In this document: piece by piece, positions 2,836 to 15,827 of the stretch
How the letters are laid out: each line of letters opens with the position of its first letter
Numbering within the stretch: position 1 is the stretch's first letter
Notes under the pieces: generated by a model
The model's input: the letters and a program-made list of their open reading frames with translations, nothing else
The model's database searches: none
What the model was told of the DNA's origin: nothing
From: a virus
Reading direction: 5' to 3' (one strand)
DNA length: 21,696 bases
Virus record (IMG/VR): IMGVR_UViG_3300000576_000027
Location: 1 to 21,696 of that record
Position numbers and translations under genes: made by a program

Positions 2836-3942
2836 ATGAATATTTATTACACTGTATATCAGATCACAAATTTAATCAATGGCAAAATTTATATAGGTGC
2901 TCATAGAACCAGAAATATCTACGATGATTATATGGGTTCTAGTAAAATATTGAGACAAGCTATAAATAAACACGGCAAAGAAAATTTCAGTAAAGAAATA
3001 TTGCATATATTTGATAATGAAGATGATATGTGGAATAAAGAAAAAGAATTAGTAACTAAAGAATTTTGTTCTAATAAAAATACTTATAATATTGCAGAAG
3101 GAGGTGTGGGTTGGTCAGATATAGGAAAATATACTGTAGATAATAAAATAGGTATATTTTCAGAAGATTATATTAAAAATAAAAAACCGGAAGTTTCTCG
3201 AAGAACACATATAAAATTGAAAAGAGAAAAACTGGGTATTTACGGTATGAGTCCCGAAAAGAGATCTGAAAACGGTAAAAGAGCTGTTGCTTATTGTAGA
3301 GAAAATAATTTAGGATTATTCGGTATGAGTTCCGAAAAGAGATCTGAAAACGGTATTAAAGGTTCTAATACTTGCAGAGAACGCGGTGTTGGTTTATTCG
3401 GTTTAACTTTTGAAGAAAGATCAGAAATATCTAAAAAAACGCAAAGTGAAATGTGTCCAATAAAAGCTTTTGAAATTAGATCTAAAGGTGGGAAAATAGG
3501 AGCACAGATGCAAATTGAAAATAAAATAGGTATATTTGGTCGTAGTGAAGAAGAACGAATTGCTTATGCTAAACATGCTAATAATAAACAGAAAGAATTA
3601 GGTGTAGGTTTTTATAGTTCTGAAACACAAAGAGAATTAGGTAAAAGAGGCGGTCCTAAAAATAAAGGATTCAAATGGTATTCAGATGATAATGCGGACT
3701 ATAAATATACATCTAGAGAACAAAAAGAACTTTCTTTTGAGGAATTTCTAGAACAAAATCCACAATATAAATCAGGCAGAAACAAAGTACCTTATAGACC
3801 AAGAAATACTAAAGGTCGTGTACTTGCAACTAATGGTGTAGTGAATATACAATTCAAGTCGCCAGAAGAGCGTGATAAATATATTCAGGAGAATAAGGAC
3901 TTCCGTAAGGGTAGAACTAATTTAAACAAAAAGAATAAATAA
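2836..3942 (+). CDS. GIY-YIG homing endonuclease
   Basis: A free-standing homing endonuclease that would nick or cut phage DNA near its own site and spread by repair. The N-terminal GIY-YIG domain is clear: YTVYQITN (5-12) for the GIY strand, KIYIGAH (17-23) for YIG, basic HRTR (23-26), an acidic EKEL segment with candidate metal-binding Glu near 69-71, and TYNIAEGG (83-90). Residues about 95-280 hold repeats of the form LG(L/I)(F/Y)GMSxEKRSENG, two of which (3244 and 3322) are nearly identical at DNA level at a 78-bp offset; such repeats bind DNA in this group. The C-terminus contains TNGVVNIQF and a GR-rich end, also typical. It has its own Shine-Dalgarno (AAGGAG) and late promoter. It separates two tail genes that are normally adjacent in T4-like phages and is visibly richer in A/T than its neighbours, consistent with insertion. 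Confidence 0.9.
   Translation: MNIYYTVYQITNLINGKIYIGAHRTRNIYDDYMGSSKILRQAINKHGKENFSKEILHIFDNEDDMWNKEKELVTKEFCSNKNTYNIAEGGVGWSDIGKYTVDNKIGIFSEDYIKNKKPEVSRRTHIKLKREKLGIYGMSPEKRSENGKRAVAYCRENNLGLFGMSSEKRSENGIKGSNTCRERGVGLFGLTFEERSEISKKTQSEMCPIKAFEIRSKGGKIGAQMQIENKIGIFGRSEEERIAYAKHANNKQKELGVGFYSSETQRELGKRGGPKNKGFKWYSDDNADYKYTSREQKELSFEEFLEQNPQYKSGRNKVPYRPRNTKGRVLATNGVVNIQFKSPEERDKYIQENKDFRKGRTNLNKKNK
3934..3941 (+). promoter_or_regulatory. 19: Possible late promoter (AATAAATA) for the tail tube gene
   Basis: AATAAATA keeps the ATAAATA core and lies 30 nt before the tube ATG at 3972, almost the same distance as the other late promoters here (31 nt). It overlaps the TAA stop of the GIY-YIG gene. 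An AT-rich end of an AT-rich gene could give this by chance. Confidence 0.4.
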
Positions 3943-3971: not shown

Positions 3972-4520
3972 ATGTTGAATATATCTAATATGCGTTCTCA
4001 GTTAATTGGTGGAGGTGCTAGACCTACTCTATTTCAGGTTATTATCACTAACCCAATTGACGGTTCTGCAGATCTAAAAGTACCGTTTATGGCACAAGCA
4101 GCACAGCTTCCGTCATTCACTACCGGTATTATTAATGTTCCCTACATGGGAAGAACTATCAAAGAAGCTGGTGATCGTACCTTTGAAGACTGGACTGTCA
4201 CTATCATCAACGATGAAGACTTTCTAGTCCGTAATGCAATGGAAGCATGGAATAATGCTATCAATCGTCTGGAAAGAAATATTCGTGATACTGGTTCATC
4301 TTCTGGTTTAGACTACAAGTCACAGGCCACAGTAACACAATATGCAAAGACTGGTGATCCAATCAGAACTTATCAGTTCGAGGGACTTTTCCCATCTAAT
4401 ATTGCTCCAATCCAGCTTGATTGGTCTTCAACGGATACATACGAACAGTTTGATGTAACTTTTTCATACGACAGTTTTGAGGTGATTTCCGGATCTACTG
4501 GTAACGCCGGCGGCCGATAA
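3972..4520 (+). CDS. 19: Tail tube protein (gp19)
   Basis: Subunit of the inner tail tube through which DNA passes; the sheath encloses it. The 182-residue protein is slightly longer than T4 gp19 (163). Family features are the start MRSQLIGGGARPTLFQV, FMAQAAQLPSFTTGIINVPYMGRTIKEAGDRTF (about residues 39-72, the conserved receptor-like strand region), DWTVTIINDEDF, and the C-terminal GLFPSNIAPIQLDWSSTDTYEQFDVTFSYDSFEV. The start ATG follows AAGGAG with about 11 nt spacing; an internal Met at residue 7 is an alternative start. It is followed 19 nt later by the portal gene, so the T4 order 18-19-20 is kept apart from the endonuclease insertion. Confidence 0.95.
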   Translation: MLNISNMRSQLIGGGARPTLFQVIITNPIDGSADLKVPFMAQAAQLPSFTTGIINVPYMGRTIKEAGDRTFEDWTVTIINDEDFLVRNAMEAWNNAINRLERNIRDTGSSSGLDYKSQATVTQYAKTGDPIRTYQFEGLFPSNIAPIQLDWSSTDTYEQFDVTFSYDSFEVISGSTGNAGGR

Positions 4521-4539: not shown

Positions 4540-6165
4540 ATGGTAAAATTATTTGGTTTTGAAATAAAAAAATCAAGTGAGCAACCACCAGAAGTAGAGA
4601 GTTTTGCACCTAAAATTGAAGATGATGGTGCAACTGTTGTTACTGCGGCTGGTGGTTCTTACGGCACTTTCGTTGATCTTGAAGGATCTGCCAAATCAGA
4701 GGCCGAACTTGTTTCTCGGTACAGAGAAATGTCTCTTCAACCGGAAATAGAAGAAGCTATTGATTCTATCGTTGAAGAAGCAATGGACACAGACGATGAT
4801 ACTATCGTGTCTATCAATATAGATAAAGTTGAATACACTGAAAAAGTGAAGAAACGCATCCGAGAAGAATTCAATGTAGTACTTGATCTGCTCAATTTCA
4901 ACATGCTTTCTTATGATATATTCAGACGTTGGTATATTGATGGACGTCTATACTATCATGCTATTATTGATAATGATAAACCCCACGAAGGTTTAAAAGA
5001 ACTACGGTATATTGATCCTCGGAAAATCCGAAAAGTTCGTGAAGTAAAGAAAGAAAAACAAGGCGAAGTCATCATAGAAAAGGTCAAAGGTGAGTACTTC
5101 ATCTATAATGACAAAGGTTTTGCCAACAAGCTAAAAGCATCTGCTTCATATGGTTCTGTTGGTGGTATGAAAATCGCCAAAGATTCTATTGTTCATGTCA
5201 CTTCTGGTGTTCTAGACGAAACAAACACTTTCGTTCTTTCTCATCTTCACAAAGCAATTCGTCCAATGAATATTCTTCGTTCAATCGAAGATGCTACGGT
5301 GATTTATACTCTGGCACGTGCACCAGAAAGACGAATTTTCTATATTGATGTCGGTGGTCTTCCAAAGGCCAAGGCCGAACAATATATGCGCGATATGATG
5401 ACAAGACATAAGAATAAGCTCGTCTATGACCAGACTACTGGTGAAGTTCGTGATGATAGAAAATATACCACAATGCTGGAAGACTATTGGTTTCCACGTA
5501 GAGAGGGTAACCGTTCAACAGAAGTTTCCAGTCTTCCCGGTGGTGGAACACTTATAAATATTGAAAACATTGAATATTTCCAACGGAAACTATATAAAGC
5601 ACTGAATGTTCCTATTACTCGTCTTCAGGGTGAAACAGGTTTTACTCTTGGTCGTTCAACAGAAATTTCAAGGGATGAAGTCAAATTCTCTAAATTTGTT
5701 GCTCGTCTACGTAGACGCTTCTCGCATCTTCTTTATAATGCACTAGAAAAACAATTAATACTAAAGAAAGTAATTGCACCAGAAGACTGGGAAGAACTTC
5801 GGAATGATATCACTTTTGATTTTGCTATTGACAACTATTTTTCAGAACTTAAATATTCAGAAATTCTTACTTCTCGTGTAGATACACTACAGAGAATGGA
5901 ACCTTATATTGGTAAGTACTATTCAAATACATGGGCTCGTAAGAATATTCTGATGCAGACCGATGAAGATATTGAAGAGATGGATAAGGAAATAGAGAAA
6001 GAAACTGGAGAAGGTGAAGGATCCGAACCAGGAGGGAATGGAGAAAGACCAGAACCTAATCCATTACCGGAACCTAGAGCGGCACCTTTACCAGGTCAAG
6101 TAGACAAAGAACCTAAAGAACCGTCTGATGGTGACGAGCAAGAAGAAAAACAAATACTTTCATAA
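4540..6165 (+). CDS. 20: Portal vertex protein (gp20)
   Basis: Forms the dodecameric ring at one capsid vertex, nucleates head assembly with the scaffold and is the channel for DNA packaging and exit. The 541 residues compare with 524 in T4. Recognisable portal segments are YREMSLQPEIEEAIDSIVEEA, DIFRRWYIDGRLYYH, LRYIDPRKIRKVREV, the central LARAPERRIFYIDVGGLPKAKAEQYM, the long DDRKYTTMLEDYWFPRREGNRSTEVSSLPGG block, YFQRKLYKALNVPITRL and GRSTEISRDEVKFSKFV. The last 60 or so residues are acidic and proline-rich (repeated EP and GEGEG), a low-complexity tail beyond the T4-like core. The start has AAAGGA about 8 nt upstream. No promoter is obvious just before it, so it is probably co-transcribed with the tube gene. 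Confidence 0.96.
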   Translation: MVKLFGFEIKKSSEQPPEVESFAPKIEDDGATVVTAAGGSYGTFVDLEGSAKSEAELVSRYREMSLQPEIEEAIDSIVEEAMDTDDDTIVSINIDKVEYTEKVKKRIREEFNVVLDLLNFNMLSYDIFRRWYIDGRLYYHAIIDNDKPHEGLKELRYIDPRKIRKVREVKKEKQGEVIIEKVKGEYFIYNDKGFANKLKASASYGSVGGMKIAKDSIVHVTSGVLDETNTFVLSHLHKAIRPMNILRSIEDATVIYTLARAPERRIFYIDVGGLPKAKAEQYMRDMMTRHKNKLVYDQTTGEVRDDRKYTTMLEDYWFPRREGNRSTEVSSLPGGGTLINIENIEYFQRKLYKALNVPITRLQGETGFTLGRSTEISRDEVKFSKFVARLRRRFSHLLYNALEKQLILKKVIAPEDWEELRNDITFDFAIDNYFSELKYSEILTSRVDTLQRMEPYIGKYYSNTWARKNILMQTDEDIEEMDKEIEKETGEGEGSEPGGNGERPEPNPLPEPRAAPLPGQVDKEPKEPSDGDEQEEKQILS

Positions 6166-6199: not shown

Positions 6200-7258
6200 A
6201 TGTCTTGGGTATCACAAATTGTTAAATCTGCACTAGAAGGTGATGCAGTTGAAATGAAAACTGCATTTGAAAAAGAAATGGATGAACGCATTTCTGATAA
6301 AATGGATGATCTTTACCAGGAAGCCGCTGATGAACTCTTTGCAGAATCAGAAGAACTAGATGAGTCATTTAAACGAGGTGATATTATCGAAGTGCCTGGT
6401 TCAGGTTCTACTAAACATAAAGCAGTAATGATTGCACCAAATAAAGCTGTTTATATTGAAGATGACTCTGCTGAAAGTGTTCCTTCTGATGCACTTTCAA
6501 AATCAACTAAAGCTAAGAGAACTACTCGTGATGAAAAGAATATGGCATCTGAATATTTAAAAGCCATGAAAGAAGATCTAGAATTAGATGAGCGCAGAGG
6601 AGGTGCACCCAAAATGGGCCCAGACCCTTTTCGTTCAATGACAGCCGGTGGTGAAAAAGATCGGAGATCAGCTGCACAGAAAGGTTCAAAATGGAGAGTT
6701 ACTTTCAAGACAGGACATAAAGCCGTTGATGTAACAGCTCGGAACACTTCAGAAGCTATCAAAAAGGGTATTGCATCTGCAGATAAACAAGATGTTCAGG
6801 GATCACCTGCTTATAAAGATGTGAAGAAAATCTCAGAGGAAGTTGAATACTTAGATGAAAAAATCAAAATTGGTACTAAAGTGAAAATACATTCTCCTGG
6901 GGATTCTTATCACGGTAAAGTCGGTAGAGTCGGTGAAATCCGTCATGGATCTTTTAAAGGTGCTCCAAAAACATATACTATTGATTATGAACATGATGGA
7001 AATCAATCAGTACAATTACCAAAAAATAAAATAAAAATGTATACTGAAGAAGTTGATCTGGATGAAGCCAAGATGTCTGATGGAGAAGTGCTTGCTGCTG
7101 CAAAGAAACTTGCCAAAAATGGTAAAGATGCTAAGACAAAGAGTTTTGGACAAGGTCTTGTAGACTTCTATGATGAAAATGATTCTTTCACACCTGATCA
7201 AGTCGCCGGACTACAGAACATTATGAAAAATGCAAGTTTCCAGATGGCTAAAGACTAA
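6200..7258 (+). CDS. 67: Prohead core protein, gp67-like N-terminus with modular extension
   Basis: The first 50 residues (SQIVKSALEGDAVEMKTAFEKEMDERISDKMDDL...) resemble T4 gp67, the small prohead core protein encoded directly after the portal gene: an amphipathic helix region with the SALEGDxVxxKxxFE pattern. T4 gp67 is only 80 residues; this protein has 352. The extra 300 residues are divided by ELDE/YLDE/DLDE motifs at 52-55, 129-131, 218-220 and 287-289. The pieces look unrelated: 56-131 (FKRGDIIEVPGSG..., a small beta fold), 132-220 (WRVTFKTGHKAVDVTARNTSEAIKKG), 221-289 (TKVKIHSPGDSYHGKVGRVGE, SH3/KOW-like in appearance) and a helical 290-352. The LDE sites resemble the (L/I)xE consensus of T4 prohead protease, so the chain may be cut into several internal peptides. 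AAGGAG precedes the ATG. The gp67 assignment rests on position and the N-terminal pattern. Confidence 0.75.
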   Translation: MSWVSQIVKSALEGDAVEMKTAFEKEMDERISDKMDDLYQEAADELFAESEELDESFKRGDIIEVPGSGSTKHKAVMIAPNKAVYIEDDSAESVPSDALSKSTKAKRTTRDEKNMASEYLKAMKEDLELDERRGGAPKMGPDPFRSMTAGGEKDRRSAAQKGSKWRVTFKTGHKAVDVTARNTSEAIKKGIASADKQDVQGSPAYKDVKKISEEVEYLDEKIKIGTKVKIHSPGDSYHGKVGRVGEIRHGSFKGAPKTYTIDYEHDGNQSVQLPKNKIKMYTEEVDLDEAKMSDGEVLAAAKKLAKNGKDAKTKSFGQGLVDFYDENDSFTPDQVAGLQNIMKNASFQMAKD

Positions 7259-7710
7259 TGGAAAGTTTCAAGTCTTTCTCTGAAGGTATTAAGTTTGGAA
7301 GGCCGATGTTTCATATCTCTTCTACGAGATCGAAACTTCAGACCAAACCACCCAACTATAATCAATACCTAGAAGCATCATTGAAAGATATTGAAGCAGA
7401 TGCCAAGAAATTTAAAGAAGAAGGTCGGGATGACTTTGTCAAACTTCTCCGTGATATCTATAGAAAGAGACGAGAGGAAATACCACTAGTCAAGAAGAGT
7501 GGTATGTCACCACAGGAACGTGAAGGTGTCAGAAATCAAGCACAAGGGCCGTTTATAGAATCAATGCCATACTATAGGTTGAAAGAAACTCTTGATTTTT
7601 ATAAGACAATGCATTCTAGGCTTAAGAGAAAAAATCCCTCTGATCCTCTTCTAGATGATATCAAAACCGTACTAGGAAAAATAGTCAATAGATTTAAAAA
7701 GGGAAAATGA
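7258..7710 (+). CDS. Prohead-region protein of unknown function (position of gp68)
   Basis: A 150-residue, strongly charged, mostly helical protein. The start ATG shares one base with the TAA of the preceding gene (TAATG), and its TGA overlaps the next start, so translation is coupled on both sides. It sits where T4 carries gp68, between gp67 and gp21, but I cannot see a convincing sequence match to gp68. Visible features are an N-terminal SFKSFSEGIKFGRPMF, a central basic helix (RDIYRKRREEIP), GMSPQEREGVRNQAQGPFIESMP and a lysine-rich end. Unlike its neighbours it lacks repeated LDE-type motifs. No known domain recognised. Confidence 0.75.
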   Translation: MESFKSFSEGIKFGRPMFHISSTRSKLQTKPPNYNQYLEASLKDIEADAKKFKEEGRDDFVKLLRDIYRKRREEIPLVKKSGMSPQEREGVRNQAQGPFIESMPYYRLKETLDFYKTMHSRLKRKNPSDPLLDDIKTVLGKIVNRFKKGK

Positions 7711-9905
7711 TGAGAAATCTCCATCAAATTATCAACGAAATGGCATCTAAGAATGTCGTACAAGAAGTAGAAGAACCACGCGGTGAAGCTGAAAAGAACT
7801 TCAAGGGTAAACATGAAGTATCTGTCAAGGCTGATGCTGCGGGTAATGGTGATGAAGTCTTCAAGGGCTCTGGGACCAAGAAGAAAAAGCGCAAAGCTGA
7901 CTATGAATCTCCTGAAGATGAAATCTTTTATGAGGATGCTGAAGAAAGTGATGATATAGACGAATCTAAGAAGCTTCTTAATCCGAAACGGGATCCTAAA
8001 ATGGGTGATGAATATGCTAAAAAATCATCCAATAAACCTGTACGTGTATCTTTTCACGATGAAAATGCTATGAAAAGATGGATGAAAGTTCAGTCACTTG
8101 ATAAAAATGATAATGAAATTATCAATATGAGCAAAACACATTTGGATCTTGTTCCTGAAATGAGAAAGTATATTTCTAAAGTGAAACACGGAGATATGAT
8201 TTATCAAATTAAAGATATTAAAGAAGATCTAGACGAACGTGAACTTTCTGCGTCTGAGGAAAAGAAAAAAGAAGAAATCGTGAAGGGTATGAAAGATAAT
8301 GAAGCAGAGCTTAAAAAGAAATATGGTGATGACTGGAAATCAGTCATGTATGCCACAGCAACTAAGCGTGCTAAAGAGTCAATGAACGAAGCCGTGGAAG
8401 TATCTCACGATCGTTATATGCGTTCCCATGGAAAGAAAGCATCTGGTCGTGGTGGTATGTGGATGTTTACTAACAAACGTTCTGGTGACGTTGACTATGA
8501 CAATGAAGAAGAAGTATTTCAGCCCAAGAATTTTTCTTCCAAGTCATTCACTGATGCAGCCAAAGAAGCTAAAGAATGGGCCAAGAAGAACGGACATTCA
8601 ACTATCTATGTGATGGAATCACTGGATGAAGAATATTTAGAAGAAGCTACTAAGATAGATGATTATGAACTTAAAACGACTGGTAAAAAGAAAAGTACAA
8701 CAGCACATCCTAATGGTAAACCTGTTTATGAGGTTCTTTATAAGGGTGAAAAAGTAGGTACTGTTGAACCTTATTCGGCTTATAAAGATACAAAAAAGCC
8801 GGGTGCAAGAATAGTTTCTAGTAGAAAAGAAGTAACAAGATATAGCTATTCGTTTGAACAAGGTAAAGGGCCTGAACGAGGAGAAGTATCTGCTAAAAGT
8901 AAACATGATCATCTTAATGCCAAACACGCTTTCGAGCATTTTGTTATGATGCATTCTAGATGGGCCGAAAAAAATATGAACGAGGCCAAGAAAATGAAAG
9001 ACGATCCTTGCTGGGATGACTATGAAATGGTTGGTAAAAAGAAAAAAAATGGTAAAGAAGTTCCAAACTGTGTTCCAGAAGAGGTAGAACTTGATGAGTA
9101 TGAAGAGTTGGACGAACTATCTAAAAAAACAGTTCAATCATATCTTGATAAGAATATAGATTCTAAAAAAGATGGGTATGATTCTCCAAGAAAATTTAGA
9201 AACAGAATGACTTCTGGTGCTACTGCGTATCGTAAACTAGGGAAAAAAATACCTGGAATGCGCTCTCAACCTAAGGTAAAAATTAAAGCAACGAATGAAG
9301 AACTTGATGAATCAAAGTGGGTTGTTACTGTTAATGGTAAAGATGGTTATGGTGTTTTTGATAATGAAGCTGATGCCAAAAAGAAAGCTCAAGAAGTTCG
9401 TAAAAATTTGAAAAAAGATGATAGAACAGCAACTGTTAGTGTTATTAAGGAAGAAATTAAAGAAAACTATCCAATGGCTCAATCAGTAGGCATGCCATCA
9501 GTTTCATATGAATATGACCATGATAATACTGAAATAGAATTCCTAGAACAAGAAATTCTTTCTTCACTAGTAGCATCTATGAATATCAAACTACAGTATG
9601 TATTCGATAGTCTTGACGACGGTACTACACTACCTAGTTACTATATTGATACACTACTCTCTATGCGTAATACAGTGAATTCAATGTACCAGGCAGTTCT
9701 AGACCAAGAAAATGGTGTAACCGAAAGTCATGAACTTGATGAAAATAATGAATTTGATAAATATATTGATACCAAACTAGAAGAAAAAGAAATATTGCAA
9801 TTTCTAGATAAACTTTCTGAAAAGAATCAGGCTAAAGCCAAGAAAATGATGGATTCAGATGAAGGTCTAGAAAAACTCAAGAATTTCATCAAGAAACACG
9901 GGTAA
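7707..9905 (+). CDS. Large modular prohead protein, candidate protease-processed polyprotein
   Basis: A 732-residue, highly charged protein between the core genes and the prohead protease. It begins with IINE (8-11) and then consists of small, compositionally distinct modules divided by LDE, IDE, MNE or LEE: at 84-86, 175-177, 226-228, 306-308, 311-313, 424-426, 462-464, 468-470, 533-535 and 677-679, plus IKE at 171, 580 (KEE) and 584. Modules include 87-177 (VRVSFHDENAMKRWMKV), 178-228 (a helical SASEEKKKEEIVKGMK...YGDDWKSVMYATATKRAK unit), 229-308 (GGMWMFTNKRSGDVDY), 314-426, 427-464 (DDPCWDDYEMVGKKKKNGKEVPNCVPEE, with two Cys) and 536-582. Several of these recur, in my recollection, in scaffold-like proteins of marine T4-like phages. 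I infer an internal head protein cleaved by gp21 during maturation. The start ATG overlaps the previous stop by 4 nt (ATGA); the ATG at 7710 is an alternative. Confidence 0.85.
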   Translation: MMRNLHQIINEMASKNVVQEVEEPRGEAEKNFKGKHEVSVKADAAGNGDEVFKGSGTKKKKRKADYESPEDEIFYEDAEESDDIDESKKLLNPKRDPKMGDEYAKKSSNKPVRVSFHDENAMKRWMKVQSLDKNDNEIINMSKTHLDLVPEMRKYISKVKHGDMIYQIKDIKEDLDERELSASEEKKKEEIVKGMKDNEAELKKKYGDDWKSVMYATATKRAKESMNEAVEVSHDRYMRSHGKKASGRGGMWMFTNKRSGDVDYDNEEEVFQPKNFSSKSFTDAAKEAKEWAKKNGHSTIYVMESLDEEYLEEATKIDDYELKTTGKKKSTTAHPNGKPVYEVLYKGEKVGTVEPYSAYKDTKKPGARIVSSRKEVTRYSYSFEQGKGPERGEVSAKSKHDHLNAKHAFEHFVMMHSRWAEKNMNEAKKMKDDPCWDDYEMVGKKKKNGKEVPNCVPEEVELDEYEELDELSKKTVQSYLDKNIDSKKDGYDSPRKFRNRMTSGATAYRKLGKKIPGMRSQPKVKIKATNEELDESKWVVTVNGKDGYGVFDNEADAKKKAQEVRKNLKKDDRTATVSVIKEEIKENYPMAQSVGMPSVSYEYDHDNTEIEFLEQEILSSLVASMNIKLQYVFDSLDDGTTLPSYYIDTLLSMRNTVNSMYQAVLDQENGVTESHELDENNEFDKYIDTKLEEKEILQFLDKLSEKNQAKAKKMMDSDEGLEKLKNFIKKHG

Positions 9906-9910
9906 TAGAA

Positions 9911-10594
9911 ATGAAACTTATTACAGAACTATATCAGGACTCATTTGAAGTCATTAATGAAGAGAATGATACTGGAAAGAAATCACTTTGTATAGAGGGC
10001 GTCTTCATGCAAGCTGATGTGAAAAACCGTAATGGTAGAGTCTATCCACGTGGTATTCTTGAAAAGGAAGTGAACAGATATATCAATACTCATGTGAAAG
10101 AGAAAAGAGCACTAGGTGAACTTGGACACCCACAAGGACCTAAAATCAATGAAGACAGAGTATCACACCTTATTACTAATCTAAAATTAGAGGGTAATGA
10201 TGTAATCGGTAAAGCTAAAGTTCTTTCTACTCCAATGGGTAATATTGCTAAAGCTTTACTTGATGATGGTGTTAAGATCGGTGTTTCTTCTCGTGGTCTT
10301 GGTTCATTAAAGGAAAAAAACGGTGTTAATGAAGTCCAGAATGATTTTTATCTGGCAACAGTTGATATCGTAACAGACCCTTCCGGTCCAAATTGCTTTG
10401 TTAATGGCATCATGGAGGGAGTAGAGTTCTGGTATGATCCTTCTAAGGGTATTTGGACTCAAAAAGAAGTCACTGAATTTGCTGACCAGGTTGAAGAGAT
10501 CAAAGATACCGTGAAGCAAATGAGCAGAAAAGAGATTTTTGAAGTAAAAGAGTCAGTATTTGCTCACTACCTTAACATACTCGCTAATAAATAA
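9911..10594 (+). CDS. 21: Prohead core protease (gp21)
   Basis: Serine protease (T4 gp21, MEROPS S77 type) that matures the head by cleaving capsid, scaffold and core proteins after (L/I)xE. The 227 residues compare with 212 in T4. Features are SLCIEGVFMQADVKNRNGRVYPRGILEKEV (25-54), GELGHP with His73 and RVSHL with His86, VLSTPMGN (104-111), GVSSRGLGSL with Ser126/Ser127 (candidate nucleophile), and DIVTDPSGPNCFVNGIMEG (152-170). This His...Ser...Asp arrangement is as expected of the family; I cannot say by eye which His is catalytic. The gene starts 6 nt after the 732-aa protein, its likely substrate, and precedes the scaffold and capsid genes, the canonical order. Its start has only a weak Shine-Dalgarno, so coupling to the upstream gene is likely. 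Confidence 0.95.
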   Translation: MKLITELYQDSFEVINEENDTGKKSLCIEGVFMQADVKNRNGRVYPRGILEKEVNRYINTHVKEKRALGELGHPQGPKINEDRVSHLITNLKLEGNDVIGKAKVLSTPMGNIAKALLDDGVKIGVSSRGLGSLKEKNGVNEVQNDFYLATVDIVTDPSGPNCFVNGIMEGVEFWYDPSKGIWTQKEVTEFADQVEEIKDTVKQMSRKEIFEVKESVFAHYLNILANK

Positions 10595-10637: not shown

Positions 10638-11861
10638 ATGACTAAGAAAACAGAAGTTGAAAACCAGGATCTTGACCTAGACTTTGAAAACGAGCTAGAT
10701 ACAGATCTTGGTGAAGCCGAAGACAAGGCCGAAAAAGAAAATAAGAAGACAATTAAGTCTACTGGTAAGCCAAAACAAGATGCTGATCATATTGAAGAAA
10801 AGTCATATGACAAAAAGAAAATGAAAAAAGAAGATGATCATGACGAAGATGAGGACGAAGATCTAGAAGAAGCTTATACTTCCAAGTCCGAACTAATGGC
10901 TAAAATGGTTAAGTATGCTTCAGGTATGTCTAAGGATAATCTTGCACAGACTGTTGAGCGTATCATTCACTCAGCTGAAGAAATTGCTGCTGCAAACAAG
11001 TCCGAAACTGATCCAGATAATAATGAAGCAAAAAACAAAGCTTCTATTAAGTCAACCGGTAAGCCAAAAGAAGCTGCACATAAGCTTCCCATGAAGGAAG
11101 ATCTAGAAGCTGTATTTGGTTCTGAAGATCTTACTGAGGATTTCCGCAAGCGCACTGAAACACTTTTCGAAGCTGCCGTTGAAACTCGTTTAGGTATTCT
11201 CCGTGAGGAACTCATTGAAGAGTACGAAGAGAAGCTTTCAGAAGCTAAGGCTGAATATGAAACACAACTAGAAGAAGCAACAGAAACCATTCTGGAAGAA
11301 ACCGAACAAAAGGTATCTGATTATCTTGACTATGTCGTCAAGGAGTGGATGGAAGAGAATGAAGTTGCTCTCCGATCAAATCTTAAGGTTGAAGTCACTG
11401 AATCATTCCTTCAGGGGCTAAAGGGTCTATTCACTGAACATTACGTAGAGATTCCAGATGATAAAGTTGATGTCATCGAGGAACTTACAGGAAAGGTTCA
11501 GGAACTCAAAAATGAACTTAATGAAAATGCAGAACGTTCTATCGAACTGCAACACGAATTGAACGAAATGAAAATTGATTACATTCGTTCTGAACTAGCC
11601 GAAGGTCTTACTGAAACTCAGAAAGACAAGTTCTATTCATTGACTGAAACTATTTCAGACTATTCTGATGTAGATGCTTTCCGTGAAAAGGCTGGTTATT
11701 TACTAGAATCTGTCCAGAAGAGCAATACTCGAAAGAGCTCTGAACAGGATCTAAATGAAGAAGTTGAACTAGAGGAGAGTGACAGCCCAAAGGGTTACAC
11801 TGATCCAAATATTTCAATGTATGCAAAGGCCCTTTCACTAACCTCTAACAGAACTCGATAA
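10638..11861 (+). CDS. 22: Prohead scaffolding core protein (gp22)
   Basis: Main internal scaffold around which gp23 assembles, later degraded by gp21. The 407 residues are longer than T4 gp22 (269) because of an acidic, lysine-rich N-terminal extension of about 150 residues. That extension includes two copies of a short cassette, NKKTIKSTGKPKQDA (35-49) and NKASIKSTGKPKEAA (133-147). The gp22 core starts near 153 with LEAVFGSEDLTEDFRKRTETLFEAAVETRL and continues through long coiled-coil helices to about 320, then GLTETQKDKFYSLTETISDYSDVDAFREK. Near the C-terminus are LNEEVELEE and PNISMYAKALSLTSNRTR, typical of gp22. A late promoter and AAAAGGAG precede the ATG. Confidence 0.93.
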   Translation: MTKKTEVENQDLDLDFENELDTDLGEAEDKAEKENKKTIKSTGKPKQDADHIEEKSYDKKKMKKEDDHDEDEDEDLEEAYTSKSELMAKMVKYASGMSKDNLAQTVERIIHSAEEIAAANKSETDPDNNEAKNKASIKSTGKPKEAAHKLPMKEDLEAVFGSEDLTEDFRKRTETLFEAAVETRLGILREELIEEYEEKLSEAKAEYETQLEEATETILEETEQKVSDYLDYVVKEWMEENEVALRSNLKVEVTESFLQGLKGLFTEHYVEIPDDKVDVIEELTGKVQELKNELNENAERSIELQHELNEMKIDYIRSELAEGLTETQKDKFYSLTETISDYSDVDAFREKAGYLLESVQKSNTRKSSEQDLNEEVELEESDSPKGYTDPNISMYAKALSLTSNRTR

Positions 11862-11911: not shown

Positions 11912-13267
11912 ATGTTTACTAATGAAGAACTACTTAAAAAGTGGGAGCCAATCCTTGAACATGAAGATGTTCCTGCGATTCAGGACAAGTACCGCAAGTA
12001 TGTTACAGCTACCCTTCTAGAGAATACTGAAAGAGAACAGCGTAACGAGTCAACTTCCGGCTACAACGGTTTCCGGAGTCTTCAAGAAGCTCCAACCAAT
12101 GCTGCTGGTACTGGTGGTTTTGGTGGTTCTGCAACTTCACCTGTTGCTGGTTATGATCCAATCATGATCTCACTCATCCGTCGTGCTGCACCTAATCTTG
12201 TTGCATACGATGTTTGCGGTGTCCAGCCAATGACCGGACCTACTGGCCTAATCTTCGCCATGCGCGCACATTATGCCAACATGGAAGGTGACGAAGCATT
12301 CTATAATGAAGCTAATACTGGTTTCGCTTCACGCGTAGCCGCTTCACCTGCTGCTAACACACTCGTTGTTGGTGGTGCTAATAACAACGTAGGTACTGAC
12401 GTATCTGCAAACTCTGAACTATATAACTTTGCTGGTGGTATGAGTACTTCTCTGGCCGAAGCTCTTGGTTCTAATACAACCAATCAGTTCCCAGAAATGG
12501 CTTTCTCCATTGATAAGGTTTCAGTTACCGCACAGAGCCGCGGTCTAAAGGCTGAATATTCAACCGAGCTTGCACAGGATCTACGTGCCGTCCACGGTCT
12601 TGATGCCGAGACAGAGCTTGCTAATATTCTCCAGACTGAAATTCTGGCTGAAATCAACCGTGAAGTTGTTCGTACTCTGAACCTCACTGCTTCTGCAGGT
12701 GCTCAGACCGGTACTACAACTGCTGGTATCTTCGACCTCGACACAGATTCTAACGGCCGTTGGTCAGTAGAAAAATTCAAGGGTCTTCTATTCCAGATCG
12801 AGCGTGAAGCTAACGCAATTGCAAAAGCTACTCGTCGCGGTAAGGGTAATATCATCCTCTGTTCTTCTGACGTAGCATCCGCTCTTCAGATGGCCGGTGT
12901 ACTTGATTATACTCCTGCTCTGAATGCTAATAACAATTTAGTTCCTGATGATACAGGAAATACCTTCGTCGGTGTTCTATCTGGTCGTTACCGTGTGTAT
13001 ATTGATCCATACGCTGGTGCCGATTACCTCACTGTTGGTTATAAGGGTGCTAACGCATTCGATGCTGGATTCTTCTATTGCCCATACGTTCCACTACAAA
13101 TGGTTCGTGCAACTGGTGAAAATAGCTTCCAACCACGTATCGGATTCAAGACCCGATATGGAATGATTGCTAACCCATTTTCACGCGGATCAACAGCTTC
13201 AGACGGTTCACTGATGACTAACTCTAATGTTTACTATCGCAGAATTAGAGTTAATAATCTTCTATAA
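11912..13267 (+). CDS. 23: Major capsid protein (gp23)
   Basis: HK97-fold major head protein that forms the hexamers of the capsid. The 451 residues compare with 521 in T4 and are nearer the length in cyanophage-type relatives. The N-terminal targeting segment (ELLKKWEPILEHEDVPAI, about 5-59) should be removed by gp21; the likely site is after Glu59 in SLQE-APTNAAG, an (L/I)xE site. Highly conserved blocks follow: GGFGGSATSPVAGYDPIMISLIRRAAPNLVAYDVCGVQPMTGPTGLIFAMR, EAFYNEANT, FPEMAFSIDKVSVTAQSRGLKAEYSTELAQDLRAVHGLDAETELANILQTEI, GNIILCSSDVASAL, and the end FSRGSTASDGSLMTNSNVYYRRIRVNNLL. The region is richer in G/C than surrounding genes, with highly expressed-type codons. No gp24-like vertex gene follows. 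Confidence 0.98.
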   Translation: MFTNEELLKKWEPILEHEDVPAIQDKYRKYVTATLLENTEREQRNESTSGYNGFRSLQEAPTNAAGTGGFGGSATSPVAGYDPIMISLIRRAAPNLVAYDVCGVQPMTGPTGLIFAMRAHYANMEGDEAFYNEANTGFASRVAASPAANTLVVGGANNNVGTDVSANSELYNFAGGMSTSLAEALGSNTTNQFPEMAFSIDKVSVTAQSRGLKAEYSTELAQDLRAVHGLDAETELANILQTEILAEINREVVRTLNLTASAGAQTGTTTAGIFDLDTDSNGRWSVEKFKGLLFQIEREANAIAKATRRGKGNIILCSSDVASALQMAGVLDYTPALNANNNLVPDDTGNTFVGVLSGRYRVYIDPYAGADYLTVGYKGANAFDAGFFYCPYVPLQMVRATGENSFQPRIGFKTRYGMIANPFSRGSTASDGSLMTNSNVYYRRIRVNNLL

Positions 13268-13297: not shown

Positions 13298-13325
13298 GGG
13301 CGGGACTTCGGTTCCGCCCTTATTT
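13298..13325 (+). terminator. Rho-independent terminator after gp23
   Basis: GGGCGGGAC (13298-13306) pairs with GTTCCGCCC (13311-13319), with one G-T pair, around a cTTCGg tetraloop, followed by TTATTTTA. It ends late rightward transcription at the point where the leftward genes converge; its T-rich tail overlaps the stop codon of the leftward endonuclease gene. Confidence 0.9.
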
Positions 13326-14972
13326 TATGTAGACATATAATTTACTCCCTGCATCATAATATCTCTTCATACTTAATACGTCTGTCATAAATTGAACTTC
13401 ACTTTGTACTAAATCAGCTCCATATTCTTCGATTAATTTATGTTTTTGTGTTTTATATCTAGGTAAAAACTTTTTAGAGTCTGTCCAAATATAATTAGGA
13501 TCTGTATGAGAAACATATTCGAAATTATTTTTTTCATATACATTTCCATTAGACCAAAAACAGTTTGCATATGATAAAATGGTTTCTCCTTCTTTCATAT
13601 GATTTTTAACAAAATACGAAAGTAATCTAGAAAATCCACCTATCACAGTTGTATTATTAAGCGTACAAAACCTCACAAGTTCATAATTATATTGTTTATT
13701 ATACCTACTTTTAGAGAAAGTAGCAATAGATAATAAGGTATCATTTTCATCAAAAAGACCAATATACCAAGATGCATTTGAAAAACCTTGAAGGTGATTA
13801 TTATCTAAGAAATGTCTTATATCTTTATCATAAGACATTTCTTTCACAAAGCATTTTCTTGCATAGATTTTATTATCTATTATACCTAATTTACTCTTGA
13901 TAACACTTTTCCACTTGTCAGTATTACTATAATAAAAAAGATCTGTTATTTGTAATAATTGAATACCTTTATTTTCAGCAAGAATATATTTTTCTTTATG
14001 GTAATTTTTTTTCTTATATTCTTCAGAATGCCAAAATATACCATTACATTCAATACCTATGTTCTTATTAGGTATGAATAGATCAATTTCCTGTCCATTT
14101 AGAGTTTTTCTATCATTTCTAATTATTTCTTTTTCATCAATAAATGTTTTTAAGAGTTCATATACACTATTTTCAAAGGACGAAACCTTATAGTTGGGTT
14201 TATATTGTATATTTTTAAAATCTAAAACACGCTTAAACATATGAGGTGAAATATTCAATTTATCACTTATTTCTGTTATAAGATCACCATTTAAATATTT
14301 CTCTATATCATCCATAAGAAATTCAGAATCACGTATTTTTAATAAATGTCTTAGACCGTTTTCAGTTTTATACCAACTAGATACTCCATAATTTTCTTGA
14401 AAATAATTTTTGAAAAAATCATTATCTCTTTTTTCTTTCATATTTAGTGAAGACATTTTTCTTGATTCTTCACTTTCAAACCAATAATCAACGCCGTATC
14501 TTTGATTGATAGTGTTTTTAGTTTTTTCTATTAAAATTGGAGAGAAAACAGCATGTTTTGCACCATATCTTTCCAACATGGTTTGTTCTTGTTTTTCCTT
14601 TATCTCTTTTCTTTCTAATGGCGTTTTAACTCCATATCTTTCTAAATTAGTTTTGACCATATTTTCTACATGAACATCTCGACAATCTTTACGTGAATCT
14701 CCTCCTTTTTTAGCTGCACATTGAACAGAACAAGTTTTTCCATACCCCTTAAGTATACCTCTAAAAACACTATTTTTATTTTTACATACTTCACATACAG
14801 GTATTTCAGAAATTTCATTTACCAGATGATAAATATTTTGTTTGAAATTTCCTGTATCTATGCAAAATAATTTAGATATTCTATCTTTATAGGGTTTTAT
14901 AGATTTATAATATCCATATGGACTGTTTTCAACCTTATTTTTAATGAACTTGATTAATTCTTCATCTGTCAT
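13320..14972 (-). CDS. EDxHD/Vsr-like homing endonuclease with zinc-ribbon-like N-terminus
   Basis: A 550-residue free-standing phage endonuclease. Residues 60-85 contain CEVC and CSVQC, spaced as a zinc ribbon. Four repeats follow, each with ERYGV-like cores (LERYGVKTPLE near 110, LERYGAKHAVF near 133, NQRYGVDYWFES near 156, QENYGVSSWYKT near 192), the kind of DNA-binding repeat seen in this group. The nuclease core is NGQEIDLFIPNKNIGIECNGIFWHSE (292-317): Glu295, Asp297, Glu308, Asn310 and His315 fit the Vsr-like EDxHD pattern described for I-Bth0305I. The C-terminal 170 residues (RHFLDNNHLQGFSNASWYIGLF...VIGGFSRLLSYFVKNH...YANCFWSNGNVYEKNNF) form a domain often seen attached to such nucleases. 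The gene faces the capsid gene tail to tail and is very AT-rich, suggesting recent insertion at the late/early boundary. AAGGA lies 7 nt before its ATG. Confidence 0.85.
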   Translation of the reverse strand: MTDEELIKFIKNKVENSPYGYYKSIKPYKDRISKLFCIDTGNFKQNIYHLVNEISEIPVCEVCKNKNSVFRGILKGYGKTCSVQCAAKKGGDSRKDCRDVHVENMVKTNLERYGVKTPLERKEIKEKQEQTMLERYGAKHAVFSPILIEKTKNTINQRYGVDYWFESEESRKMSSLNMKEKRDNDFFKNYFQENYGVSSWYKTENGLRHLLKIRDSEFLMDDIEKYLNGDLITEISDKLNISPHMFKRVLDFKNIQYKPNYKVSSFENSVYELLKTFIDEKEIIRNDRKTLNGQEIDLFIPNKNIGIECNGIFWHSEEYKKKNYHKEKYILAENKGIQLLQITDLFYYSNTDKWKSVIKSKLGIIDNKIYARKCFVKEMSYDKDIRHFLDNNHLQGFSNASWYIGLFDENDTLLSIATFSKSRYNKQYNYELVRFCTLNNTTVIGGFSRLLSYFVKNHMKEGETILSYANCFWSNGNVYEKNNFEYVSHTDPNYIWTDSKKFLPRYKTQKHKLIEEYGADLVQSEVQFMTDVLSMKRYYDAGSKLYVYIK

Positions 14973-15238: not shown

Positions 15239-15396
15239 TGGTAAGTACCACGAATAATTATTTTTACATTTATAATACTCATAAGTGGTTCTTTGATATT
15301 ACCACCTACTATTCTTCTCATTTCCATATTTACTCCTTGGAAATTAATACGAAAATCAGTATAGTATTTCTTCATGCTTACTGTATTAAGTTTCAC
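15235..15396 (-). CDS. Small protein of unknown function (53 aa, GTG start)
   Basis: The frame runs from GTG at 15396 to TGA at 15235-15237 and gives MKLNTVSMKKYYTDF...GTYQ. The GTG follows AAGGAG by 6 nt and overlaps the TGA of the NADAR gene by 4 nt (GTGA). Its own stop overlaps the next start (ATGA). This head-to-tail packing and the good ribosome site support a real gene despite its small size. An inner ATG at 15327, also preceded by AAGGAG (within CCAAGGAGTAAAT), could give a 30-residue product. No family recognised. Confidence 0.55.
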   Translation of the reverse strand: MKLNTVSMKKYYTDFRINFQGVNMEMRRIVGGNIKEPLMSIINVKIIIRGTYQ

Positions 15397-15827
15397 AATT
15401 CACTCCTTACGGTCATAAGTATATTACCAAGATAATTGAAACCTTCACCATCACATACACCCCAAAATTTATCACCCCAGTTATTACCCTCGACTAATTC
15501 GGCATCACCCGTCTTGAGGAGTAAACTCTTTAGCTTGTCAGAATTAGTGAATTTAGATCGAACTAGACGCTCCATGGTGTCTAGTTTTCTGTCGTCAAAG
15601 GTGATATCATATGGAAAGTCTTTACCACGACCAAATCGTTTAGCATCGCCTGGTTTGATGATAGATCTTACCAGTTTCCGAACTTCAGGGTCTGTAGTTT
15701 TGGCAGCGACATATGCGTGTTCTACTGAATTATACATTTCTCCTTCAAAGTAGACAGTGCATGGATACATATTAGACAGAAAGGAATATTCACCACGGAA
15801 ACTATTGATTATATTGCTCATAAGCAT
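15393..15827 (-). CDS. NADAR (YbiA-like) domain protein
   Basis: A 144-residue single-domain member of the NADAR/YbiA family (DUF1768), N-glycosidases linked to ADP-ribose chemistry; bacterial NADARs remove ADP-ribose from guanine in DNA and YbiA acts on riboflavin intermediates. Family motifs are SFRGEYSFLSNMYPCTVYFEGEMYNSVEHAYVAAKT (9-43, with the core SVEHAY and a preceding FLSN), KPGDAKRFGRG (58-68), a central helix TMERLVRSKF, LLKTGDAELVEGNNWGDKFWGVC (near 103-125) and NYLGNILM. All usual motifs are present, so it should be active. The start may be ATG 15827 (AAGGATGA upstream) or ATG 15821 (MSNIINSF). Phages could use it to reverse DNA ADP-ribosylation defence such as DarT, or to adjust NAD-related metabolites; that use is inference. 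Confidence 0.88.
   Translation of the reverse strand: MLMSNIINSFRGEYSFLSNMYPCTVYFEGEMYNSVEHAYVAAKTTDPEVRKLVRSIIKPGDAKRFGRGKDFPYDITFDDRKLDTMERLVRSKFTNSDKLKSLLLKTGDAELVEGNNWGDKFWGVCDGEGFNYLGNILMTVRSEL

Follow-up and report, generated by a model that had tools for sequence, protein, structure and literature searches.

The open reading frame (ORF) at 7707-9905 on the + strand of a 21.7-kb (21,696 nt) IMG/VR virus fragment from an aquatic T4-like phage, record IMGVR_UViG_3300000576_000027 (the whole stretch is referred to here as the window), probably encodes a modular prohead-core polyprotein of 732 amino acids (aa), which gp21 would cut at its linkers, with some pieces leaving the head and others retained and maybe delivered. 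The coordinates and length given for this ORF in an earlier note on the same DNA are exact, the start codon is ATG, and the place of the gene within the head-core cluster between gp20 and gp21 supports the prohead assignment made there. The T4 order gp20, gp67, gp68, gp21, gp22, gp23 is also the order in the window, so the 732-aa protein occupies the place of the T4 gp67/gp68 prohead-core genes. From this setting and the features of the chain itself we infer its core location, its cutting by gp21 and the retention or delivery of its pieces. In the proposed mechanism, a short leader and conserved end domains would place the chain in the head core beside the gp67-like, gp21 and gp22 proteins, and its middle is built from small modules that can replace one another, with acidic linkers between them that end in (L/I/V/M)-x-E. 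Active gp21 would cut the exposed linkers, converting one chain into a set of ~4-16 kDa pieces, of which some may exit as scaffold waste and others may stay with the DNA for possible delivery to the host. Phages trade the modules as linker-to-linker cassettes.

The motif content of the protein provides the first line of evidence. The earlier note listed at least ten LDE, IDE, MNE or LEE tripeptides; 11 are present (6 LDE, 1 IDE, 2 MNE and 2 LEE), and together with INE (residues 9-11), IKE (171, 580, 584) and LSE (703) the total of [LIM]xE motifs reaches 16. Compared with 2000 composition-preserving shuffles of the same protein, [LI]xE was observed 14 times versus 7.3 expected (p=0.0065, ~2-fold), [LIM][DEN]E 12 times versus 2.7 (p<=0.0005, the floor of the test; ~4-fold), and LDE 6 times versus 0.4 (p<=0.0005), with no enrichment of the control motifs [KR]xE, [FYWV]xE and [LIM]xD. 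Within the window, LxE enrichment is confined to core-type proteins: it recurs in ORF 6200-7258 (4 LDE versus 0.1 expected), gp21 and gp22 (21 LxE versus 9.7 expected) and is lacking from gp18, gp19, gp20 and gp23 in the same shuffle test. The Glu content of 11.6% might suggest a chance or composition artefact of a lysine/glutamate-rich disordered protein, but this explanation is refuted by the shuffle controls, the recurrent borders in independent relatives and the cassette breakpoints described below, and retains next to no probability.

Cuts at the nine best-supported sites would leave a leader of 11 aa, and the remaining pieces would measure 38-144 aa, a slightly wider range than the 40-110 residues expected earlier. 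The earlier expectation of blocks unlike in sequence holds: the best match between any two of them covers 11-12 aa at E 0.02. The module map is as follows.

7707-7739, + strand: leader, residues 1-11 (MMRNLHQIINE), capsid-targeting-like, ends in I-N-E.
7740-7964, + strand: N-terminal conserved domain, residues 12-86 (..KH.V..GNGDEVFKG..PEDEIFYE), ends in IDE.
7965-8237, + strand: M2, residues 87-177, ends in LDE; weak match, to S-B05 only.
8238-8390, + strand: M3, residues 178-228 (ELSxxExxKKEEIV..YGDDWKSVMYATATKxAK), ends in MNE.
8391-8630, + strand: M4, residues 229-308 (SHDRYMRSHGKKASG..IYVME), ends in LDE; 60-65% identity in L064-L068.
8631-8984, + strand: M5, residues 309-426, ends in MNE; the interval between two supported borders.
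8985-9098, + strand: M6, residues 427-464, two-Cys DPCW..VPNCVP module, ends in LDE.
9099-9311, + strand: M7, residues 465-535 (LDELSKKTVQSY..), LSxxTLxSY family, ends in LDE.
9312-9743, + strand: M8, residues 536-679, ends in LDE; the part from 613 onward matches L005.
9744-9902, + strand: C-terminal conserved domain, residues 680-732; aligned in relatives, AlphaFold2 predicted local distance difference test (pLDDT) 85-91.

The leader resembles in shape those of relatives (MKTFNDILNE, MLSFKELMNE and MRKFKNLRSIKE), and by analogy with T4 it may act as a capsid-targeting sequence (PMC9026906). The N-terminal domain matches L036, L040, L012, L015, L010, L027 and L047 by blastp, and phrog_26626 at 2e-8. 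For M3, 600 candidate stretches from viral contigs were examined and 514 confirmed. No relative of M5 was found, and M8 probably comprises two units, with IKE at 582/586.

An AlphaFold2 model of the protein, built with 17 sequences, is mostly of low confidence overall (pLDDT 55.9), with M3 (pLDDT 89-95), M4 and the C-terminal domain confidently predicted. Most linkers are of low confidence, the LDE motifs at 177, 464, 470, 535 and 679 lying in blocks of pLDDT 38-55, and the motifs at 693 and 705 fall inside the C-terminal helices. Because LEE 691-693 and LSE 703-705 thus lie within a confidently predicted C-terminal helical domain, they are probably not module borders, and the earlier inclusion of LEE among the boundaries is to that extent weakened. 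The MNE sites, with Met at P3, depart from the strict form of the T4 L/I-x-E rule, yet MNE, MKE and MEE are found at module borders in relatives. A Foldseek search with the whole model returned no PDB match and two viral matches at E<1e-4, both unnamed phage proteins with TM ~0.1; M4 modelled alone (pLDDT 68) likewise had no PDB match. A PDB sequence search gave no match for the whole protein and only non-significant ones for M3 and M6, and Pfam, PHROGs, NCBIfam and PADLOC profiles returned nothing beyond families of unknown function.

The same architecture recurs in relatives. A scan with gp21 yielded 47 loci, and nearly all loci holding both gp20 and gp21 carry a gene with LxE linkers between them. 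The proteins differ widely in length (163-611 aa). Most of them begin with the same conserved sequence (..DEQKFVDKHVVAK..NGNGDEVFKGSKVK..GEDEKVYEE) and also have a helical domain conserved at the C-terminus, and their variable middle consists of 1-6 modules joined via EE(V/A)Ex(L/I)(D/E)E linkers. Matches between the 732-aa protein and the gp20-gp21 relatives cover the N-terminal domain, M3 and the C-terminus; those to other phages cover M3, M4 and M6, and both ends of the matches fall near its LDE/MNE sites. Cultured cyanophages were considered as a source of orthologues and rejected; between gp20 and gp21 they carry nothing but small ORFs, so this type of protein is known here only from metagenomes. 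Module strings are nevertheless carried by the cultured phage BUCT-ZZ01 of Synechococcus elongatus PCC 7942 (ORF UTS51990.1). An EF-hand/dockerin-like module (KIDANKNGKVDAHDF and its relatives) is a further recurring cassette in module-built proteins (L010:6328-7590, L015:4313-5770, L021:5256-5972, L058:7623-8378).

Module borders, tested on larger sets of copies, coincide with the motif to varying degrees. [LI]xE stands directly before all 10 of 10 copies of the LSxxTLxSY module (the M7 family). At the start of M3, 77% of the 74 copies carry one of L, I, V and M at P3, versus a background of 18%, P3 alone being an independent test here because the Glu before the border belongs to the consensus of M3 itself. 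For M4, [LI]xE occurs within 14 aa upstream in 4/6 copies and downstream in 5/6, versus a background of 15%. Among 122 linkers, P3 is L or I in 66 and V in 17. The capsid protein gp23 provides the reference site: the LQE-A site that the earlier note placed at residue 59 is borne out at residues 57-59, where L-x-E is aligned in 26/26 distinct T4-like sequences and the next residue is mostly A or T.

Several observations weigh against a core polyprotein cut by gp21. [LI]xE lies within 14 aa of M6 in only 27/65 copies upstream (42%) and 21/65 downstream (32%), versus 14%, and several modules also occur in proteins without LxE on one side. In part of the linkers P3 is V, M or A, outside the L/I rule, and P1' is often L or I, whereas gp23 sites carry mostly A or T. 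The conserved ends of the 732-aa protein also have no detectable homology to T4 gp68 (hhalign probability 0.1).

Shuffled module order across phages, proposed earlier as a check, was positive. Orders were compared for single-copy, motif-labelled modules; automatic clustering of linker-cut pieces was dropped, since multi-module pieces bridged the others and most ended up in a single group, and motif-labelled orders were therefore used instead. Inverted orders were observed for TAK/SYR and TAK/LS (L010, L015, L045), LS/ISA (L015, L045), M3/M6 (the 732-aa protein and BUCT-ZZ01) and M4/MSH (L065, L068), and some proteins carry two copies of one module, such as L047. Over 5.2 kb, L066 and L067 share 97-99% identity; the exception is one swapped cassette inside the modular gene, where 160 bp (2329-2488) in one is replaced by 358 bp (4614-4971) in the other, with breakpoints at the linkers AMEE-A and EEVE(I/L)DE. 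L182 carries the L066 cassette at 97.3% identity (182 bp) beside the first cassette of L067 at 94.0% (199 bp), against a background identity of only 73-85% outside the two. Across 234 module-type ORFs, high-identity DNA blocks end no more than 6 aa from [LI]xE in 61% of cases versus 20% in the control (n=106) and start within 12 aa of it in 62% versus 36% (n=96); [LI]xD showed no association with either. As some loci are near-duplicates, neither count is fully independent. The blocks originally marked out by tripeptides are therefore modules with LxE borders, separately mobile in relatives, with border tests and cassette breakpoints in agreement.

The coding of the linkers bears on whether they are cut at all. 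[LI]DE linker codons show a near-normal synonymous spread, with 31 different 9-mers, and the six LDE of the 732-aa protein use five codings, so the motif is apparently kept as protein sequence and not merely as copied DNA. Linker Leu somewhat over-uses CTT (0.48 versus 0.28), and part of the linker conservation may therefore be DNA homology. An uncut chain, in which the LxE linkers would be acidic flexible spacers and recombination junctions rather than protease sites, would accommodate this over-use and the looser P3 and P1' relative to gp23 sites, and the linker sequence could itself promote cassette exchange. The codon variety, the specificity of the enrichment for hydrophobic-x-Glu with none for [LI]xD, and the position of the gene beside a protease of that very specificity argue in the opposite direction, which makes an uncut chain quite improbable.

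The two-Cys block at residues 427-464, singled out in the earlier note as distinct, recurs widely, and its distribution indicates that M6 is an autonomous unit and a mobile module. Its consensus is DPCW..YE.VG.KKK.GK.VPNCVP; of 600 candidate stretches checked, 546 were confirmed, and M6 is present in more than 500 viral contigs. In archaeal virus HSTV-1 it lies within the gene annotated as head maturation protease, in halovirus HRTV-4 within a gene between portal and capsid, and in cyanophages within cytidylyltransferase-type genes; in Bacteroidetes chromosomes (Flavobacterium, Pedobacter, Pontibacter; L232-L270) it forms a free-standing lysine-rich protein of 40-50 aa. No Pfam or NCBIfam entry was found for M6.

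These distributions also bear on what the pieces would do once released. If pieces cut by gp21 only filled the core and then left, the modules would be near-neutral filler and their shuffling of little function, which the wide length range of the relatives fits. Neutral filler would decay, however, and M3 and M6 are strongly conserved across distant phages and hundreds of contigs; modules are also attached to virion-type enzymes (cytidylyltransferase; kinase-like L001), and M6 is a bacterial protein in its own right. A purely disposable scaffold is accordingly judged unlikely. Within the preferred reading of a gp21-cut core polyprotein, we think that at least some modules are cargo rather than filler, given their conservation and mobility, their attachment to virion enzymes and the occurrence of one of them as a free-living mini-protein in bacteria. 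A bolder proposal, offered tentatively, is that tailed phages share a pool of mini-protein cassettes that are plugged into the core chain, freed by the protease, packaged and delivered; if so, a phage would alter its injected toolkit via cassette swaps instead of gene swaps.

The T4-type structural gene string of the window, gp18-gp19-gp20-ORF 6200-7258-ORF 7258-7710-732-aa ORF-gp21-gp22-gp23, lies on the + strand and comprises the following features.

714-2690, + strand: gp18 sheath.
3972-4520, + strand: gp19 tube.
4540-6165, + strand: gp20 portal (PF07230, 4e-168).
6200-7258, + strand: second modular core protein, with a gp67-like N-terminus followed by LDE-bounded modules (phrog_1064 prohead, 9e-4).
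7258-7710, + strand: small ORF of 150 aa, without assigned function or LxE enrichment, in the same gene string.
7707-9905, + strand: probable modular prohead-core polyprotein, 732 aa, in the gp68 position between gp20 and gp21.
9911-10594, + strand: gp21 prohead protease, candidate cutter (Peptidase_S77, 3e-40).
10638-11861, + strand: gp22 scaffold, LxE-rich (T4_CASP, 2e-60).
11912-13267, + strand: gp23 capsid.
12080-12088, + strand: gp23 maturation site LQE-A.

The start ATG of the 732-aa ORF overlaps the stop of the preceding ORF via ATGA. In gp21, the motifs GHP (from residue 72), SSRG (126) and TDPS (155) supply the candidate His, Ser and Asp. ORF 6200-7258 carries a DUF1918/KOW-like module at residues 223-274 (DUF1918 8.5e-4, below cut-off). 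A small beta-rich-looking protein is encoded directly before gp21 at L010:7593-7991 and in most relatives, and in S-SCSM1 that place is taken by ORF38 and ORF39, two small proteins detected in virions; the window has no such gene.

Other genes were observed around this string. A GIY-YIG gene of SegE type (2836-3942, + strand), between gp18 and gp19, and an MTES_1575-type restriction endonuclease with DUF7487 (13320-14972, - strand), after gp23, are putative homing endonucleases. A NADAR-domain protein is encoded at 15393-15827 on the - strand (PF08719, 2.4e-23); the NADAR family is able to reverse ADP-ribosylation marks, and a counter-defence role for this gene is possible. Among the relatives, an intein splicing domain (PF14890) interrupts the portal gene gp20 at L046:2260-5319 (6.7e-12) and L047:3733-5742 (1.6e-6, below its cut-off), and a 419-aa collagen-like G-x-x repeat protein follows gp20 immediately at L025:3311-4570.

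Virion proteomes of cyanophages provide indirect support, by analogy, for a head location, as module-built proteins are found in them. S-SCSM1 ORF89 and ORF92 are module strings with the linkers EEVENVDE and EEVELDE and are labelled virion proteins in the record of this phage, whose virion proteome comprises 45 proteins (PMC9602691). S-CREM2 gp160, with an M6-like module between LEE and ISE, was detected in virions by 7 unique peptides (PMC10665884 Table 3). The cytidylyltransferases of both phages, also virion-detected, begin with sequences like capsid-targeting leaders, MKNFSSFLTE-A and MKSFLQFLKE-A, and the leaders of the 732-aa protein and its relatives share this shape. The authors of both studies note that some such proteins are perhaps lysate carry-over (PMC9602691, PMC10665884). 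In the cultured cyanophage P-TIM68, the 1006-aa AIR93496 (L288:841-3861), encoded downstream of a cytidylyltransferase, contains DACY, LSxxTLxSY-like, M6-like and SDAPQFKG modules with EEVEKIDE/LDE linkers.

In the open literature searched, no description of a core chain of linker-bounded exchangeable cassettes was found, and a study of phage protein mosaicism touches on head scaffolding only to say that domain databases cover it poorly (Nat Commun 2023, PMC10684548). The T4-type core, gp21 cutting and hypervariable internal proteins are known parts. Stringing exchangeable modules behind one leader in a cleavable chain would be more compact and faster-evolving than the separate internal protein (IP) genes of T4. 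Such a design would be present in many uncultured aquatic T4-like phages, in which the core genes currently carry the annotation hypothetical, and the acidic linker with LxE offers a sequence rule by which hundreds of these proteins can be divided into mini-proteins suitable for testing. The old question of the function of T4-type core peptides thereby becomes directly testable in cultured phages.

The protein can be compared with several known systems. T4 gp21 cuts after L/I-x-E, and core proteins, gp22 and gp67 among them, are each split by it into several pieces; most gp67/gp22 core peptides exit the head and some stay (PMC9026906). The 732-aa gene shares the neighbourhood of gp67 and gp22, and ORF 6200-7258 has a gp67-like N-terminus, but T4 gp67 is an 80-aa protein with an acidic tail and no exchangeable modules, unlike this chain of unlike modules. 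T4 gp68 is likewise encoded between gp67 and gp21 but is non-modular and only 141 aa long; it is listed as uncleaved in a table of one review (PMC9026906) but is degraded according to another source (PMC9958956), and homology to it was rejected on the hhalign probability of 0.1. T4 IPI, IPII, IPIII and Alt offer a short leader ending in an L/I-x-E-type motif, small mature pieces and hypervariable cargo, and once injected, IPI-III inhibit particular type IV restriction enzymes (PMC12373910, PMC3012670). The IPs, however, are separate genes with one small cargo protein and its own leader each, whereas here a single ORF strings many modules behind one leader, and the searches showed neither homology to IPs nor an anti-defence profile for it. 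In S-SCSM1 ORF89/91/92, S-CREM2 gp154/gp160 and P-TIM68 AIR93496, M6-like, LSxxTLxSY, DACY and EF-hand-like modules are joined by EEVELDE-type linkers, with virion detection in S-SCSM1 and S-CREM2, but the genes lie near the cytidylyltransferase and not in the gp20-gp21 gap. Many head proteins of phiKZ and SPN3US are also cleaved just behind the Glu of a short motif, at several sites per propeptide (PMC5694885), although the motif there is A/S-x-E and a shuffled cassette string is not known from them. As in known substrates of gp21 (S77), L/I-x-E occurs above chance in the 732-aa protein, and as in viral polyproteins, one ORF holds separable units with the cut motifs of the phage's own protease at their borders.
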